Source: Halanaerobium saccharolyticum (GTDB taxonomy: Bacteria; Bacillota; Halanaerobiia; Halanaerobiales; Halanaerobiaceae). From it: a DNA stretch of 55,443 nt. Below the pieces are notes generated by a model. It ran no database searches. It saw only the letters and a list, made by a program, of their open reading frames with translations, and had not been told where the DNA came from. Shown here one piece after another: positions 1 through 48,940 of the stretch (position 1 is its first letter; every line of letters starts with the position of its first letter). The DNA lies in contig NZ_QAXS01000021.1 of NCBI RefSeq assembly GCF_003053565.1, positions 1-55,443 of the forward strand, written 5' to 3'. The position numbers and the translations under genes were made by a program.

Positions 1-79
1 ATTTTAGTGGAGATTATTTGTGCGACGCTTATTATCTTATCAAGCTCTTTTAACTTTGTCAAGAACTTTTTAAAATAAT

Positions 80-149: not shown

Positions 150-221
150 AAAAAAAAAATAAAAAAACTTCCTCCAAGTAGATAATAATTTCTATTAAAG
201 CTATCTACTATAAAGGAAGTT
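150..221 (-). terminator. Intrinsic terminator after the small-peptide genes
   Basis: AACTTCCT (167-174) and AGTAGATA (177-184) pair with AGGAAGTT (214-221) and TATCTACT (202-209). Read on the minus strand, the stem is followed by a long T-rich tract (A-run at 150-166 on the plus strand). This would end transcripts coming from the peptide genes at 281-725. Confidence 0.7.
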
Positions 222-280: not shown

Positions 281-397
281 TTAACCAAGATAATCTATAT
301 AATCATCATTATCAGTATTTTTCTGTTTGGTATTAATTCCAAACCCAAATGCAGCGATCTCAGCAAACTCATTAACAAATTTCTCAAACTTTCTCAT
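281..397 (-). CDS. Small acidic-tailed peptide, paralogue 1 (38 aa)
   Basis: Unrecognised 38-codon gene. ATG at 397 is preceded by AGGAGT with a 6-7 nt spacer, which is a good ribosome-binding site. The N-terminal half (MRKFEKFVNEFAEIAAFGFG) would form an amphipathic helix ending in Gly-Phe-Gly. The C-terminal half is polar and ends with an acidic aromatic motif DDYIDYLG. It shares the pattern F-x-x-F-A-E...A-x-GFG...D-x-YIDY-x-G with the peptide at 467-580, and the 5' leaders are similar too, so the two are duplicates. There is no signal peptide, Cys or transmembrane segment. The design (helix, short middle, acidic tail) recalls signalling-peptide precursors, but the residues needed for AgrD-type cyclisation and any processing enzyme are missing, so no function is assigned. 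Confidence 0.6.
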   Translation of the reverse strand: MRKFEKFVNEFAEIAAFGFGINTKQKNTDNDDYIDYLG

Positions 398-466
398 AGT
401 TATCACTCCTTATAGTATTATAAAATTATTGTTTTCTTATTGTTTTCTTATCGAGAAAAATTGATT

Positions 467-580
467 TTAACCAAAATAATCAATATATTCGTCGCTATCT
501 TTATCGATATTTCTAGCTAAACCAAATCCCATTGCAGTTGTTTCAGCGAAATTGTTAAGAAATCTTTCCACTCTATTCAT
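467..580 (-). CDS. Small acidic-tailed peptide, paralogue 2 (37 aa)
   Basis: Unrecognised 37-codon gene, ATG at 580, preceded by AGAGGTGATAATT, a reasonable ribosome-binding site. It is a clear relative of the peptide at 281-397: MNRVERFLNNFAETTAMGFG forms the helical half and DEYIDYFG the acidic aromatic end. Conservation of both ends, with a variable middle of about 8-10 residues, argues that this is translated and under selection rather than a chance ORF. It lies between the other two small genes, with short AT-rich spacers that repeat the same leader sequence. Confidence 0.6.
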   Translation of the reverse strand: MNRVERFLNNFAETTAMGFGLARNIDKDSDEYIDYFG

Positions 581-650
581 AATTATCACCTCTTATAGTA
601 TTTTTAAATTATAGGTTTCTTTTAAAATTATATTTTTTTCTTAAAACTTA

Positions 651-725
651 TTACTTTCTATAACCTCTAGCCTTCATTTCTAATTCTGCTGCTTCAAAAA
701 TAAAATCTTTTACTTTTCTTAGCAT
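651..725 (-). CDS. Small peptide, divergent third member (24 aa)
   Basis: Unrecognised 24-codon gene starting with ATG at 725 after AAGGGGTGATATAAG, a ribosome-binding site very like those of the next two peptides. The product is basic and helical, MLRKVKDFIFEAAELEMKAR followed by GYRK. It shares the starting pattern M-x-R...F-(I/L/V)...A-E with the two downstream peptides but lacks the DYIDY end. It is the first gene of the array after the likely promoter at 795-826. Shorter and less certain than its neighbours, it could be a leader peptide. Confidence 0.45.
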   Translation of the reverse strand: MLRKVKDFIFEAAELEMKARGYRK

Positions 726-794
726 CTTATATCACCCCTTGTAGTTTTGTAAAATTATAGGTTTTATTAACTTTCTTATTTTCTTATTGAGTAC

Positions 795-826
795 ATTATA
801 TCGAATAAGAATTATTATGATGTAAA
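795..826 (-). promoter_or_regulatory. Possible promoter of the small-peptide array
   Basis: On the minus strand a perfect TATAAT (plus-strand 795-800) lies 20 nt downstream of TTTACA (821-826). The spacing is long for a standard promoter, so only the -10 box is convincing. It stands between the gyrA terminator and the first peptide gene, so the array probably has its own transcript. Otherwise 726-933 holds only AT-rich sequence. Confidence 0.4.
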
Positions 827-933: not shown

Positions 934-969
934 AAAAAAACTCCACAGAATTTTGATCTCTGTGGAGTT
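934..969 (-). terminator. Intrinsic terminator of gyrA
   Basis: AACTCCACAGA (939-949) and TCTGTGGAGTT (959-969) form a perfect 11-bp stem with a 9-nt loop. On the minus strand this is followed by a run of T (A-run at 934-940). It lies 18 nt past the gyrA stop and should end the dnaA-gyrA side transcript. Confidence 0.9.
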
Positions 970-20094: not shown

Positions 20095-20200
20095 CGGGTG
20101 AAGGCTGGATGAGAGACCCTAGATGGCGCCGAAGGAGCAAGGGAGACCGAAACTCTCAGGCAAAAAGAATTCAGCTGGACGTAACTCTGGACATAGCAAA
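20095..20200 (+). ncRNA. Glycine riboswitch (single recognisable aptamer)
   Basis: Conserved glycine-aptamer core: GGATGAGAGACC, then GGCGCCGAAGGAGCAA, then AACTCTCAGGCAAAAAGA and GGACGTAACTCTGGA. Only one full aptamer is visible between promoter and terminator, rather than the common tandem pair. It precedes gcvT and a transcription terminator, so glycine binding should allow read-through into the cleavage operon. Confidence 0.93.
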
Positions 20201-20277: not shown

Positions 20278-21351
20278 ATGAAAAAAACTCCACTCAATCA
20301 GGTACATAAGAATATGGGAGCAAAAATGACTGATTTTGGCGGCTGGGAAATGCCGGTAGAATATACCGGTATTATTGAAGAACATAAGGCTGTCAGAAAT
20401 AAATGCGGTCTTTTTGACGTCTCTCATATGGGAGAAATTCTTGTCAGTGGTAAAAATGCTAAAAAATCGCTGCAGAAAATCATTGCAAATGATTTAAATA
20501 AGTTGGAAAAAGGTAAAATTATTTATACGCCAATCTGTAAAGAAGATGGGGGAATTATTGACGATCTGCTTGTTTACTCTCTGCAGGATGATCAGTTTTT
20601 ACTGGTTGTAAATGCCTCTAATATTGAAAAAGATTATAACTGGATAAAAGAACACCTGCTTGAAGATACGACTGCTGAAAATTTATCAGCTAACTATGCG
20701 ATGGTGGCACTACAGGGACCAAACTCTAAAAAAATATTGACTCAATTAACAGATATTGATTTAAACAGCCTCAGTTATTACAGGTTTAGAGAAGCGAAAG
20801 TCGCCGGTGTTAATATGATAGTTTCACGGACTGGCTATACAGGTGAATTAGGTTATGAACTTTATTTTGAGCCTGAAGAAGCTGAAAAAATGTGGGATGA
20901 GTTAATGGAAGCAGGTTCAGATTTTGGCCTGCAGGCCTGTGGTCTCGGCGCTAGAGATACTCTGAGGCTTGAAAAAATATATGCTCTCTATGGTAATGAT
21001 ATAGATGAAAGCACCAACCCTTTTGAGGCTGGATTAAGCTGGACAGTTGAACTCGACAAAGGAGATTTTATTGGTAGAAAGAAATTAATAGATATAAAGG
21101 AAAACTGCTGTCAGAGAAAACTAACACCATTTGTAATCAGGGGTAGAGGTATGGCTCGCCACGGTTATGAAGTCTATGCTGGAGAAGAAAAGATTGGTGA
21201 AGTAACCAGCGGCAGTTATTCTCCTACATTAGAAGAAGGAATAGGCCTGGCTTACCTAAAAAGCGAACATACGGAAGTAGGTAGTGAGATTGAGATCAAA
21301 GTGAGAAATAGAAAAATCAAGGCTGAGGTAGTAAAAGGTCCTTTTGTCTAG
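20278..21351 (+). CDS. gcvT: Glycine cleavage system T protein (aminomethyltransferase)
   Basis: Transfers the methylene group from the H-protein-bound aminomethyl to tetrahydrofolate, releasing ammonia. 357 residues, usual length. Starts with KTPLNQVHKNMGAKMTDFGG and contains GLFDVSHMGEI, DDLLVYSL and the folate-site stretch SRTGYTGELGYELYF. First gene of gcvT-gcvH-gcvPA-gcvPB, under the glycine riboswitch. Confidence 0.98.
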   Translation: MKKTPLNQVHKNMGAKMTDFGGWEMPVEYTGIIEEHKAVRNKCGLFDVSHMGEILVSGKNAKKSLQKIIANDLNKLEKGKIIYTPICKEDGGIIDDLLVYSLQDDQFLLVVNASNIEKDYNWIKEHLLEDTTAENLSANYAMVALQGPNSKKILTQLTDIDLNSLSYYRFREAKVAGVNMIVSRTGYTGELGYELYFEPEEAEKMWDELMEAGSDFGLQACGLGARDTLRLEKIYALYGNDIDESTNPFEAGLSWTVELDKGDFIGRKKLIDIKENCCQRKLTPFVIRGRGMARHGYEVYAGEEKIGEVTSGSYSPTLEEGIGLAYLKSEHTEVGSEIEIKVRNRKIKAEVVKGPFV

Positions 21352-41149: not shown

Positions 41150-43231
41150 TTAATTATTTGTTTTTTCTGCTTCGATTTTTTTATTTAATTCTTCTAAGAA
41201 TAATTCTTCGTCAATTGGAAGTTCTACCTCTTTGTCAAGCCAGCTGGAGAGATGAATAGAGTTTGCCACTGTAACCCCGTTAATTCCTTCAGCACCTGGG
41301 GCCAACAATTCTTCTCCATCCAGAATATTTGCAGCAAAGTTGCGCATAACATTAGGATGCTGTTCCTGCCAGTTGCTTTCGAATTCAATTACTTCCTCTG
41401 TATACATTTCGTCGGTATCTCCACCCTGAACCAGATTATATACCTCCATCATTGTCATATTATCGCTCATTTCCTGTTCTGATTTAACAAGGCGTTTAAT
41501 AGTAACTTTTTTGCTGTTATCTACGATGATTTTTCCTTTGTCACCAAAGAGCTCAAAGCGATCGGTACCAATTGGATCATGGGTGCAGGTAATAAAACTG
41601 CCTGTTGCTCCATCACCATAGTCAAATAAAGCGGTTACTTCATCTTCAACTGCAATATCTCTTTGATAACCATATTTAACATTAGAATATACTTTTTTAG
41701 GCATTCCGCAGATCCACTGCATTAAATCAATCTGATGAGGTGCCTGATTAACTAAAACACCGCCACCTTCTTCGCCCCAGGTTGCTCTCCAGGCACTCTG
41801 ATCATAATAGCTCTGTGGTCTCCACCAGCTTGTGATAATCCAGTTGGCTCGACGAAGGTCACCAATTTCTCCATTGTCTACAATTTCTTTAACTTTCTGA
41901 TAAAGCGGATTTGTGCGCTGATTAAACATGATTGCAAAAGTTAAATCAGGTTTTGAAGCAGCAAATTCATTTAATTCTTTAACCTGTTTGCTGTAAACAC
42001 CAGCCGGCTTTTCTAATAGAGCATGAATATCTCGCTTTAAAGCCTCAATTCCCATCTCTGGATGCAGATAGTGGGGAACTGTAGTTACAACTGCATCAAC
42101 TTCTCCGCTTTCCAGCATTTCTAGATAATCTTCATAAAAAGGCAGCTCAGGATATTTTTCTGCAGCCTCTTCTTTTTTAGCAGGATCAATATCACAGAGA
42201 GCAGCAAGCTCCATTTGTTCTATTTTTCCTTCATTTAAAAATTCTGCGTAATAGGAACCCTGAGTTCCAAAACCAATAATACCTAATCTTACTTTTTCCA
42301 TAGTATCTCTCCTCTTAATTTTTTTATTTACTTCTGCTTTAATTTCAGTCATCAGCTGCATAAATCTTTTTCCATACTCTAGATAAGTATTATATTTTGC
42401 TTTTTCTTCTCCACTTTCAGCCTGATCATGATAGACAGCTCCCATGTGAGGCTCAATAGAAAAACCGCCGTCATAGCCATTTTCTAAGAGATCTTTAATT
42501 ATTTTTTTAACCTGGCCATCACCCTGACCGGCAAATTTGTAATCCATCTCCGGGAAAATTTCTCCTGTGTCTTCTTTAAATACACAATCTTTAATATGTA
42601 CATAAGCAATTCTATCTTTGAGCTGCTGATAGGCCTGCCAGCTGGTCTGCTTTTGGTAGGGCTCAGACCCCATTTTATTATCTGCCATTACCGGGTTGCC
42701 TGTATCAAAGACTATTTTAAAGTTTGGAGAATCAATTTCGTTTAAGAGATAATCCATATGTTGATAAGACTGAGAAAAGTAATTCATACAGTTTTCATGG
42801 ACATAGGTAATACCTGCATCTTCACACATTGCAGTTAGTATTTTGAGTTCAGAAATTATCTTTTTTTCTAATTCTGGATTTCTGGGAGCTAAATCCCGGG
42901 GAATACCAAAACTCATACCTCTGATCATTTTTGTTCCCAGTTTCTTCATTCGGGGAATAGCTCTTTTTAATTCCTCTCTACTCTCAGTAAAAGACTTCTC
43001 ATCACGAGGATCCTTTCCCCAGTTGGCAACTGCACTGCCAAAACAGTTAATTTTAATTCCGGCAGCTTCTAATTTTTGATAAACATCTTCAAATTTTTCT
43101 TCACTGATTTCAGTAATATTAGTACCATCAATATTTCTTGACTCGATATATTGCCAGCCTAATTCTTTAGTAACCTGAATTTGTTTTTCTATTGAATCAG
43201 CTGCTTCATCAGCGAATCCTGAAAAATACAA
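41150..43231 (-). CDS. Sugar isomerase-Gfo/Idh oxidoreductase fusion
   Basis: A 693-residue reading frame with two complete enzymes. Residues 1-310 are a xylose-isomerase-like TIM barrel (YVHENCMNYFSQSYQ, FDTGNPVM, IAYVHIKDCVF). Residues 311-693 are a Gfo/Idh/MocA oxidoreductase starting MEKVRLGIIGFGTQGSYYAE with GGGVLVNQAPHQIDLMQW. The second begins at ATG 42301, preceded by AAGAGGAGAG at 42307-42316, an excellent ribosome-binding site. So both a fusion and a separately initiated oxidoreductase may be made. It looks like two genes joined by loss of a stop codon. Confidence 0.9.
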   Translation of the reverse strand: MYFSGFADEAADSIEKQIQVTKELGWQYIESRNIDGTNITEISEEKFEDVYQKLEAAGIKINCFGSAVANWGKDPRDEKSFTESREELKRAIPRMKKLGTKMIRGMSFGIPRDLAPRNPELEKKIISELKILTAMCEDAGITYVHENCMNYFSQSYQHMDYLLNEIDSPNFKIVFDTGNPVMADNKMGSEPYQKQTSWQAYQQLKDRIAYVHIKDCVFKEDTGEIFPEMDYKFAGQGDGQVKKIIKDLLENGYDGGFSIEPHMGAVYHDQAESGEEKAKYNTYLEYGKRFMQLMTEIKAEVNKKIKRRDTMEKVRLGIIGFGTQGSYYAEFLNEGKIEQMELAALCDIDPAKKEEAAEKYPELPFYEDYLEMLESGEVDAVVTTVPHYLHPEMGIEALKRDIHALLEKPAGVYSKQVKELNEFAASKPDLTFAIMFNQRTNPLYQKVKEIVDNGEIGDLRRANWIITSWWRPQSYYDQSAWRATWGEEGGGVLVNQAPHQIDLMQWICGMPKKVYSNVKYGYQRDIAVEDEVTALFDYGDGATGSFITCTHDPIGTDRFELFGDKGKIIVDNSKKVTIKRLVKSEQEMSDNMTMMEVYNLVQGGDTDEMYTEEVIEFESNWQEQHPNVMRNFAANILDGEELLAPGAEGINGVTVANSIHLSSWLDKEVELPIDEELFLEELNKKIEAEKTNN
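42307..42316 (-). promoter_or_regulatory. Internal ribosome-binding site in the fused gene
   Basis: AAGAGGAGAG lies about 5-7 nt before an in-frame ATG at 42301 that is the natural start of a Gfo/Idh protein. This sequence also encodes the linker residues KRRD, so it is used both as coding and potential initiation sequence. Confidence 0.7.
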
Positions 43232-48434: not shown

Positions 48435-48680
48435 TTATTTTCCCGCAACAGCTATTGGGTTAGTTGGCTTGCCATTTTCTTTACCATTCTCGTTAACCGC
48501 AGGAAGGAAATGAATTTCTTTTACTCCATCATTGTTATCATCAACTAAAACCCTTACGCCAGCTTTATTGTTGGGAGCCTGTCCTTCACCTGTAGTTGTT
48601 TTTGTTTCAGCTATAGTCGCTGCTGAAAAAGAAACTAACATCACCATTACAATTGCTAAAACTACTGATTTTTTAAACAT
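48435..48680 (-). CDS. Small secreted protein with EF-hand-like loop
   Basis: 81 residues, unrecognised. Signal peptide MFKKSVVLAIVMVMLVSFSA with likely cleavage near ...IAE (about residue 25). The mature part is polar and contains VLVDDNNDGVKEIHF, a D-x-N-x-D-G-type Ca-binding loop as in dockerins/EF-hands. AGGAGG 6-7 nt before ATG. Behind a ~250-nt leader with tandem c-di-GMP-I aptamers. Possibly a surface or matrix protein controlled by c-di-GMP. Confidence 0.8.
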   Translation of the reverse strand: MFKKSVVLAIVMVMLVSFSAATIAETKTTTGEGQAPNNKAGVRVLVDDNNDGVKEIHFLPAVNENGKENGKPTNPIAVAGK

Positions 48681-48696
48681 TTTTTTGCCTCCTTTT

Positions 48697-48760
48697 GTAA
48701 CCCGGCTATCTCTTTTTGAGACCCGTGGCTTTGTGTCTCCATCTCCCGATGGATTTACCC
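48697..48760 (-). ncRNA. Cyclic di-GMP-I (GEMM) aptamer 2, next to the gene
   Basis: Minus strand: GGGTAAATCC, hairpin CCATC-GGGA-GATGG, then ACACAAAGCCACGGGTCT and GAGATAGCCGGGTTAC. This follows the consensus (GGCAAACC / GNRA hairpin / GACGCAAAGCCACGGGTCTAA / GATAGCCGGGTTGCC) closely. P1 pairs GTAA with TTAC. Its 3' end abuts the ribosome-binding site at 48682-48690. Tetraloop is GGGA, a GNRA type. Confidence 0.85.
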
Positions 48761-48823
48761 CTACTGGAGGAACAGAATAAAAAGTTTTATTTTTTTGAGA
48801 AACAAAAATCCTGTTCCTGCTTC

Positions 48824-48906
48824 GGCAGCCAGGCAGCCATAATCAACAAAAAAGTGATCTTAGGCTCCAGAGCTTTGCGCCCTTTAGCTTTCGCTCAAAG
48901 GTTACC
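48824..48906 (-). ncRNA. Cyclic di-GMP-I (GEMM) aptamer 1, upstream
   Basis: Minus strand: GGTAACC, hairpin CCTTTGAGC-GAAA-GCTAAAGG, GCGCAAAGC, then the canonical 11-nt GAAA-receptor halves CCTAAG (48859-48864) and TATGG (48837-48841), ending in CTGGCTGCC. GGTA pairs with TGCC for P1. This is a full GEMM-I fold. The 3' end can alternatively form a hairpin (CTGC-CGAA-GCAG with CCTG/CAGG) followed by ATTTTTGTTT, i.e. a possible terminator overlapping the aptamer. Confidence 0.88.
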
Positions 48907-48940
48907 TTTTTCGTGACTGGAACACTGAAACTATATACTA

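Follow-up and report, generated by a model that had tools for sequence, protein, structure and literature searches.

The locus described here recalls the staphylococcal psm-alpha and psm-beta operons, in which small helical peptides without a signal sequence are encoded in tandem, each with one ribosome-binding site, and in which a short basic type stands beside longer acidic ones. AgrD offers a second comparison, with its amphipathic N-terminal helix, acidic C-terminus and length of about 40 aa, as do the RRNPP-type precursors (PapR, Phr, NprX, SHP), which are small genes with a conserved C-terminal stretch. Lineage-restricted small-protein operons as such are already known, and uncharacterised lineage-specific bacterial families share with our array the short length, the conservation in one genus only and the lack of an annotated family. 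Unlike the psm peptides, the products of the Halanaerobium array keep exact residues and carry an acidic-aromatic tip; they give no sequence match to the psm peptides, no exporter gene is conserved beside them in the neighbourhoods read, and the shortest one (A) is not clearly amphipathic. Unlike AgrD, none of the 21 peptides contains a cysteine, and AgrB (PF04647) was found in 0 of 14 family genomes. Unlike the RRNPP precursors, they show no obvious signal sequence and no adjacent receptor was seen, while the tip barely varies between species. What separates the array from other lineage-specific families is that several paralogous types occur together with a unique shared leader and an invariant 20-bp promoter spacer.

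The window that we analysed is the entire contig G000:C21 with its 55,443 bases. A preliminary description had placed three short reading frames of 38, 37 and 24 codons on the minus strand at 281-725, and all three are indeed found there, transcribed in the order A, B, C. The features of the locus, in the direction of transcription, are:

939..969, minus strand: intrinsic terminator of gyrA, which parts gyrA from the array; 12-pair stem followed by a T run (0.1 expected in shuffles)
795..826, minus strand: array promoter TTTACA-N20-TATAAT within the conserved block GTTAACTACTTTACATCATAATAATTCTTATTCGATATAAT
726..761, minus strand: leader of gene A with Shine-Dalgarno sequence, CCTATAATTTTACAAAACTACAAGGGGTGATA, shared leader consensus
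651-725, minus strand: micro-gene A, 24 codons (24 aa), MLRKVKDFIFEAAELEMKARGYRK; pN/pS 0.08-0.47 among gyrA-linked orthologues
581..615, minus strand: leader of gene B, CCTATAATTTAAAAATACTATAAGAGGTGATA, shared leader consensus
467-580, minus strand: micro-gene B, 37 codons (37 aa), MNRVERFLNNFAETTAMGFGLARNIDKDSDEYIDYFG; pooled pS 0.55, pN 0.15
398..432, minus strand: leader of gene C, ACAATAATTTTATAATACTATAAGGAGTGATA, shared leader consensus
281-397, minus strand: micro-gene C, 38 codons (38 aa), MRKFEKFVNEFAEIAAFGFGINTKQKNTDNDDYIDYLG; pooled pS 0.39, pN 0.11
about 166..221, minus strand: array terminator, a long hairpin AACTTCCTTTATAGTAGATAG...CTACTTGGAGGAAGTTTTTTT with a T run
34..62, minus strand: likely rRNA operon promoter TTGACA-N17-TAAGAT, downstream of and outside the array

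The gyrA gene ends at 988 and carries its own terminator upstream of the array promoter. At the other end, the stretch 160-300 with the array terminator folds at -31.4 kcal/mol versus -18.8 kcal/mol for shuffles (z -4.1), and the counterpart of the rRNA-like promoter in related genomes (L029 and L111) lies a few hundred bases before 16S rRNA. Because the gyrA terminator, the array promoter, the array terminator and the rRNA-like promoter delimit it, the array forms a separate transcription unit between gyrA and the probable rRNA operon. The promoter and terminator suggested in the preliminary description are both present (826..795 and ~221..166) and frame one unit. The ribosome-binding sites had been called good, and we find a strong Shine-Dalgarno sequence before every frame (A GGGGTGAT, B GAGGTGAT, C GGAGTGAT). 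Long frames leave 7.7 kb of the window free, and a scan of this part for short frames with strong ribosome-binding sites yields eleven, A, B and C among them; such frames alone are thus no proof, and the proof has to come from relatives.

The three genes share a leader that is specific to them. The 3.2 Mb genome has exactly three matches to its 32-base consensus (<=3 mismatches), one ahead of each frame, and 0 to the reversed control pattern. The repeated leader noticed earlier is therefore real; the TATCACC-type site described within it is no more than the ribosome-binding site read on the other strand. No consensus RNA structure was obtained for the leaders (folding z-scores +0.4 to +1.1), and for this reason efficient ribosome binding together with shared descent is the best account of why they are conserved. 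Sequestration of the ribosome-binding site by the leader CCT was considered and rejected, the leaders being without predicted structure.

The promoter is conserved in an unusual geometry. All arrays (10/10), including the two that lie elsewhere in the chromosome (G007, G010), have T[TA][TA]ACA exactly 20 bp from TATAAT, and this length holds even in G007, G010 and G008, where the sequence of the spacer is diverged. The spacer of sigma-A promoters normally measures 16-18 bp, and a length of 19-20 bp is typical of promoters that MerR-family proteins activate. The 20-bp spacer hence suggests MerR-like control, as a lead and not as a demonstration. In G000 the spacer contains the dyad AATAA-TTC-TTATT, which is not retained in all genomes. 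The promoter block has one match per genome in 7 of 12 genomes, invariably at the array locus; a wider regulon sharing it was rejected, since the genome scans match the array locus only at the stringency used.

B and C are clear duplicates, as proposed at the outset. They are 46-49% identical in the alignment and score 97, compared with a best score of 52 among 5000 shuffles. The kinship of A to B/C/D is marginal at the protein level (shuffle p 0.005 to 0.96; hhalign P 0.008, probability 5%), so a common origin of A and the B/C/D types rests mainly on the shared leader. The best explanation for the array is tandem duplication of gene plus leader, followed by gain and loss of the copies (types A, B, C and D).

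Searching with B, then with B/C/D and A profiles, and reading the loci, we detected related genes, among them homologues with conserved ends, in 10 of the 12 genus genomes, the named species being Halanaerobium kushneri (G005), saccharolyticum (G001, G004), congolense (G006) and salsuginis (G011). The array stands downstream of gyrA in eight genomes; in two it occupies another chromosomal site and keeps its promoter geometry. Its content is A-B-C in G000 and G005 and A-C-D in G001 and G004. G011 holds A and one B/C/D-like gene, and G006 has A with the 3' scar of a B/C-type gene; a single B-like gene with a TTG start is found in G009 and a single shortened gene in G008. The unit of G007 and G010, in a neighbourhood of purC, a DnaJ-like gene and a MATE transporter, encodes A together with a second peptide of another kind, MKKTKEFTLTMMLLNPSWT[VI]NGADKDSWNF. 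Hence A is missing in G008 and G009, and intact B, C and D are missing in G006, G007 and G010; because each type is lost somewhere, none is essential genus-wide. The other two genomes, G002 and G003, are assembled less fully (75% and 83%), and no array genes were found in them: the G003 contig breaks off within the promoter, and in G002 the spot is taken by other genes.

Some further observations concern these loci. The relocated arrays occupy L124:9584-9785 (G007) and L125:3794-4046 (G010), far from gyrA. In G010 an insertion of about 50 bases, which includes a second ribosome-binding site, separates the old leader from the start codon side of gene A. The second micro-gene of this pair, MKKTKEFTLTMMLLNPSWTVNGADKDSWNF, is weakly like a 27-aa frame on G000:C51, and for neither of the two is kinship to B/C/D proven. 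That frame, MKRLQEMALTMMLANPNAGVEDFENLK (27 codons, minus strand, L123:4604-4687 on G000 contig 51), has a strong ribosome-binding site, lies between an MFS transporter-like and a TauE-like gene, and has LTMML-NP in common with the second peptide of G007 and G010. Downstream of gyrA in G002 (L112), the place of the array is taken by a protein that looks secreted and has a long tail rich in Asp, and by an unrelated 55-codon frame, MNNSKCKENAKTLSEEISETIFKSEEIMISEDFSSFTVLFNNPALRNYFANDDKE, which precedes an rRNA-like promoter.

Outside the genus, no credible relative was found with the A and B/C/D profiles in 398 genomes of the phylum; the hits beyond the genus lie almost all within long unrelated frames and were taken as chance. 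The A profile in the species-level genome collection and the searches of viral contigs likewise gave no credible relative, nor did plasmids and phages with C as the query. Pfam, NCBIfam, PHROGs, PADLOC and PDB returned no match above the curated cut-off or at E <= 0.001, and Rfam none at the array, antisense RNA families included. The family, described earlier as unrecognised, is thus new to every library searched. Additionally, among the papers listed for Halanaerobium small proteins or transcriptomes, none was relevant.

The substitution pattern argues strongly that the frames are protein-coding. Between G000 and G005, pS is 0.50 and pN 0.08 over A+B+C (Fisher p = 2e-11), so the equal rates that would have spoken against the preliminary description are not seen, and in the shifted frames the relation is reversed (pS 0.11 vs pN 0.17, and 0.06 vs 0.17). 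The independent pair G004/G001 differs at 28% of synonymous versus 6% of non-synonymous positions (p = 5e-5). D (pS 0.44 vs pN 0.04) and the second peptide of G007/G010 (0.26 vs 0.01) follow the same trend. Purifying selection is confined to the annotated frame, and the substitutions cluster at third codon positions. By every test that we computed from the sequences, A, B and C are almost certainly real protein-coding genes, and their translation is probable.

The preliminary description had noted that the first two peptides share both ends; the conserved ends are confirmed, with the correction that the N-terminal motif reads F-x-x-x-F-A-E and not F-x-x-F-A-E. In the B/C/D tail end D-x-Y-I-D-x-[FL]-G, the residues D, Y, I, D and G are invariant in all ten proteins, as are N9 and F19. 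The acidic tail applies to B and C, which carry the acidic YIDY tail, but not to A, which is basic and ends in ARGYRK. The A proteins are short and mostly basic, and I9, A13, E14, E16, M17, A19, R20, G21 and Y22 are invariant in 8/8.

The variable middle had been taken as a pattern of signalling-peptide or toxin families, and this part is not supported by the codon analysis. Residues 21-30 of C have pN 0.28 vs pS 0.32, a pN/pS of about 0.9 and near neutral, flanked by tightly constrained residues 2-20 (0.05 vs 0.46) and 31-38 (0.03 vs 0.28), and the middle of B is itself constrained (0.14 vs 0.59). The pN/pS values thus show no sign of diversifying selection in either middle. With its near-neutral ratio, the middle of C appears to evolve like a free linker, unlike a diversifying signal.

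The predicted model of C (9 sequences, mean pLDDT 66.5) shows a helix at 2-26 (block pLDDT 77-78) and a low-confidence unstructured tail; a structure search with the lone helix gave no match. Most B/C/D proteins have a raised hydrophobic moment of about 0.5 at the N-terminus (shuffle p 0.004-0.06), and the amphipathicity of A is not above shuffles (p 0.12-0.47). No obvious signal peptide or transmembrane-like segment was found in the peptides, the mean N-terminal hydrophobicity being near 0, and the B/C/D alignment has no conserved Ser at the core position.

Since exact residues are kept, the two ends stay constant around a drifting linker, and there is no sign of export, we tentatively lean towards B, C, D and A acting inside the cell as small regulators or adaptors, each type binding a defined partner. 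The array itself is best explained as a dedicated, independently transcribed operon of 24-40 aa proteins specific to the genus Halanaerobium; retention of the unit even after relocation in the chromosome (G007, G010) is taken as support for such an operon. The promoter, with a spacer of 20 bp instead of 17, would require an activator to be switched on. Having neither an obvious signal peptide or transmembrane segment nor a conserved gene for export, the proteins would stay inside the cell, where the short N-terminal helix would bind a specific partner. A flexible linker would connect this helix, in B, C and D, to the invariant C-terminal tip D-x-Y-I-D-Y-[FL]-G, and A may use its own invariant stretch A-E-x-E-M-x-A-R-G-Y instead of the tip. 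Because the copy types come and go, they are probably alternative or additive versions. The exact conservation of charged and aromatic residues (E-M-x-A-R-G-Y in 8/8) argues for specific recognition rather than a generic amphipathic surfactant. What counts against a partner is that no partner gene lies beside the array in the neighbourhoods read and that a partner specific to one type need not exist. More doubtful is the further step that these are genus-specific helix-linker-tip micro-proteins, one to three per operon under a MerR-like promoter, which regulate a core machine through the acidic-aromatic tip D-x-YIDY-F-G.

Compared with intracellular partner binding, a secreted signal or a membrane-active peptide is less likely. 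As precursors of an intercellular signal (AgrD-like or RRNPP-like), the proteins would target the membrane with the amphipathic N-terminus and release a C-terminal or middle fragment. Their size, the amphipathic N-terminal helix, the acidic C-terminus and the several paralogues per genome do recall AgrD and pheromone precursors, but we consider such a role unlikely. AgrD membership is rejected on the missing AgrB, cysteines and core serine, and the RRNPP features, an N-terminal signal sequence and a neighbouring tetratricopeptide receptor, were not found, since inspection of the neighbourhoods by eye revealed no gene resembling such a receptor. Nor do the neighbourhoods that were read contain a receptor, kinase or exporter gene conserved beside the array. 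Moreover, the candidate tip is near-identical across species and paralogues, whereas the variable part of C drifts neutrally, and a signal with a hypervariable core was rejected as the leading idea on the behaviour of the two middles.

An improbable role, too, is that of secreted membrane-active peptides similar to phenol-soluble modulins or leaderless bacteriocins, in which the basic short A would be combined with the acidic longer B, C and D. In favour of this role, the tandem operon encodes small helical peptides that lack a signal sequence, each gene has its own ribosome-binding site, the short type is basic and the long types are mostly acidic. The conservation nevertheless extends beyond a hydrophobic pattern to exact residues, charged ones included, A is no more amphipathic than its shuffles, and neither an exporter nor an immunity gene is conserved beside the array in the neighbourhoods read.

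The tiny frames, the gene duplication and the unusual aromatic C-termini (YIDYFG, DSWNF) could also be those of a type I toxin, or of a RiPP precursor modified by an enzyme encoded elsewhere. We regard both as very unlikely, since the single hydrophobic membrane helix of type I toxins is at odds with the hydrophobicity values, no antisense RNA family was matched, and no modifying enzyme was recognised by eye in the gyrA/rRNA, gyrA/antiporter and purC/DnaJ-like/MATE neighbourhoods. That the transcript is a functional small RNA, with frames that are incidental or affect only RNA stability, would fit the conserved promoter, strong terminator and conserved leader but is hardly credible given a synonymous and third-position bias limited to the annotated frames, leaders without predicted structure and no Rfam match.

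The interest of the array lies in its clean genetics and its unusual promoter. It is a complete, testable small-protein operon that standard annotation may miss, because gene A with its 24 codons falls below the usual length limit of gene finders, and it illustrates duplication, divergence and loss of 24-40 aa protein families within one genus. A partner, if found, would make it a new small regulator in halophilic anaerobes, about whose regulation very little is known.

Other features of the window deserve mention. Next to the array, at 988-1250 on the minus strand, GyrA has a long, highly acidic and fast-evolving C-terminal extension, the length of which varies among Halanaerobium species. 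A glycine riboswitch aptamer (single Rfam match) lies at 20098-20181 on the plus strand, ahead of a gene at 20278 that encodes the glycine cleavage T-protein. The 693-aa frame at 41150-43231 (minus strand) combines a xylose-isomerase-like TIM barrel with a GFO/IDH/MocA oxidoreductase and is apparently a fusion of two sugar enzymes that are usually separate. Finally, at 48435-48916 on the minus strand, two tandem c-di-GMP-I riboswitches (48821-48916 and 48693-48769) stand immediately ahead of an 81-aa frame; its small product, MFKKSVVLAIVMVMLVSFSAATIAETKTTTGEGQAPNN..., looks secreted and has no Pfam match.
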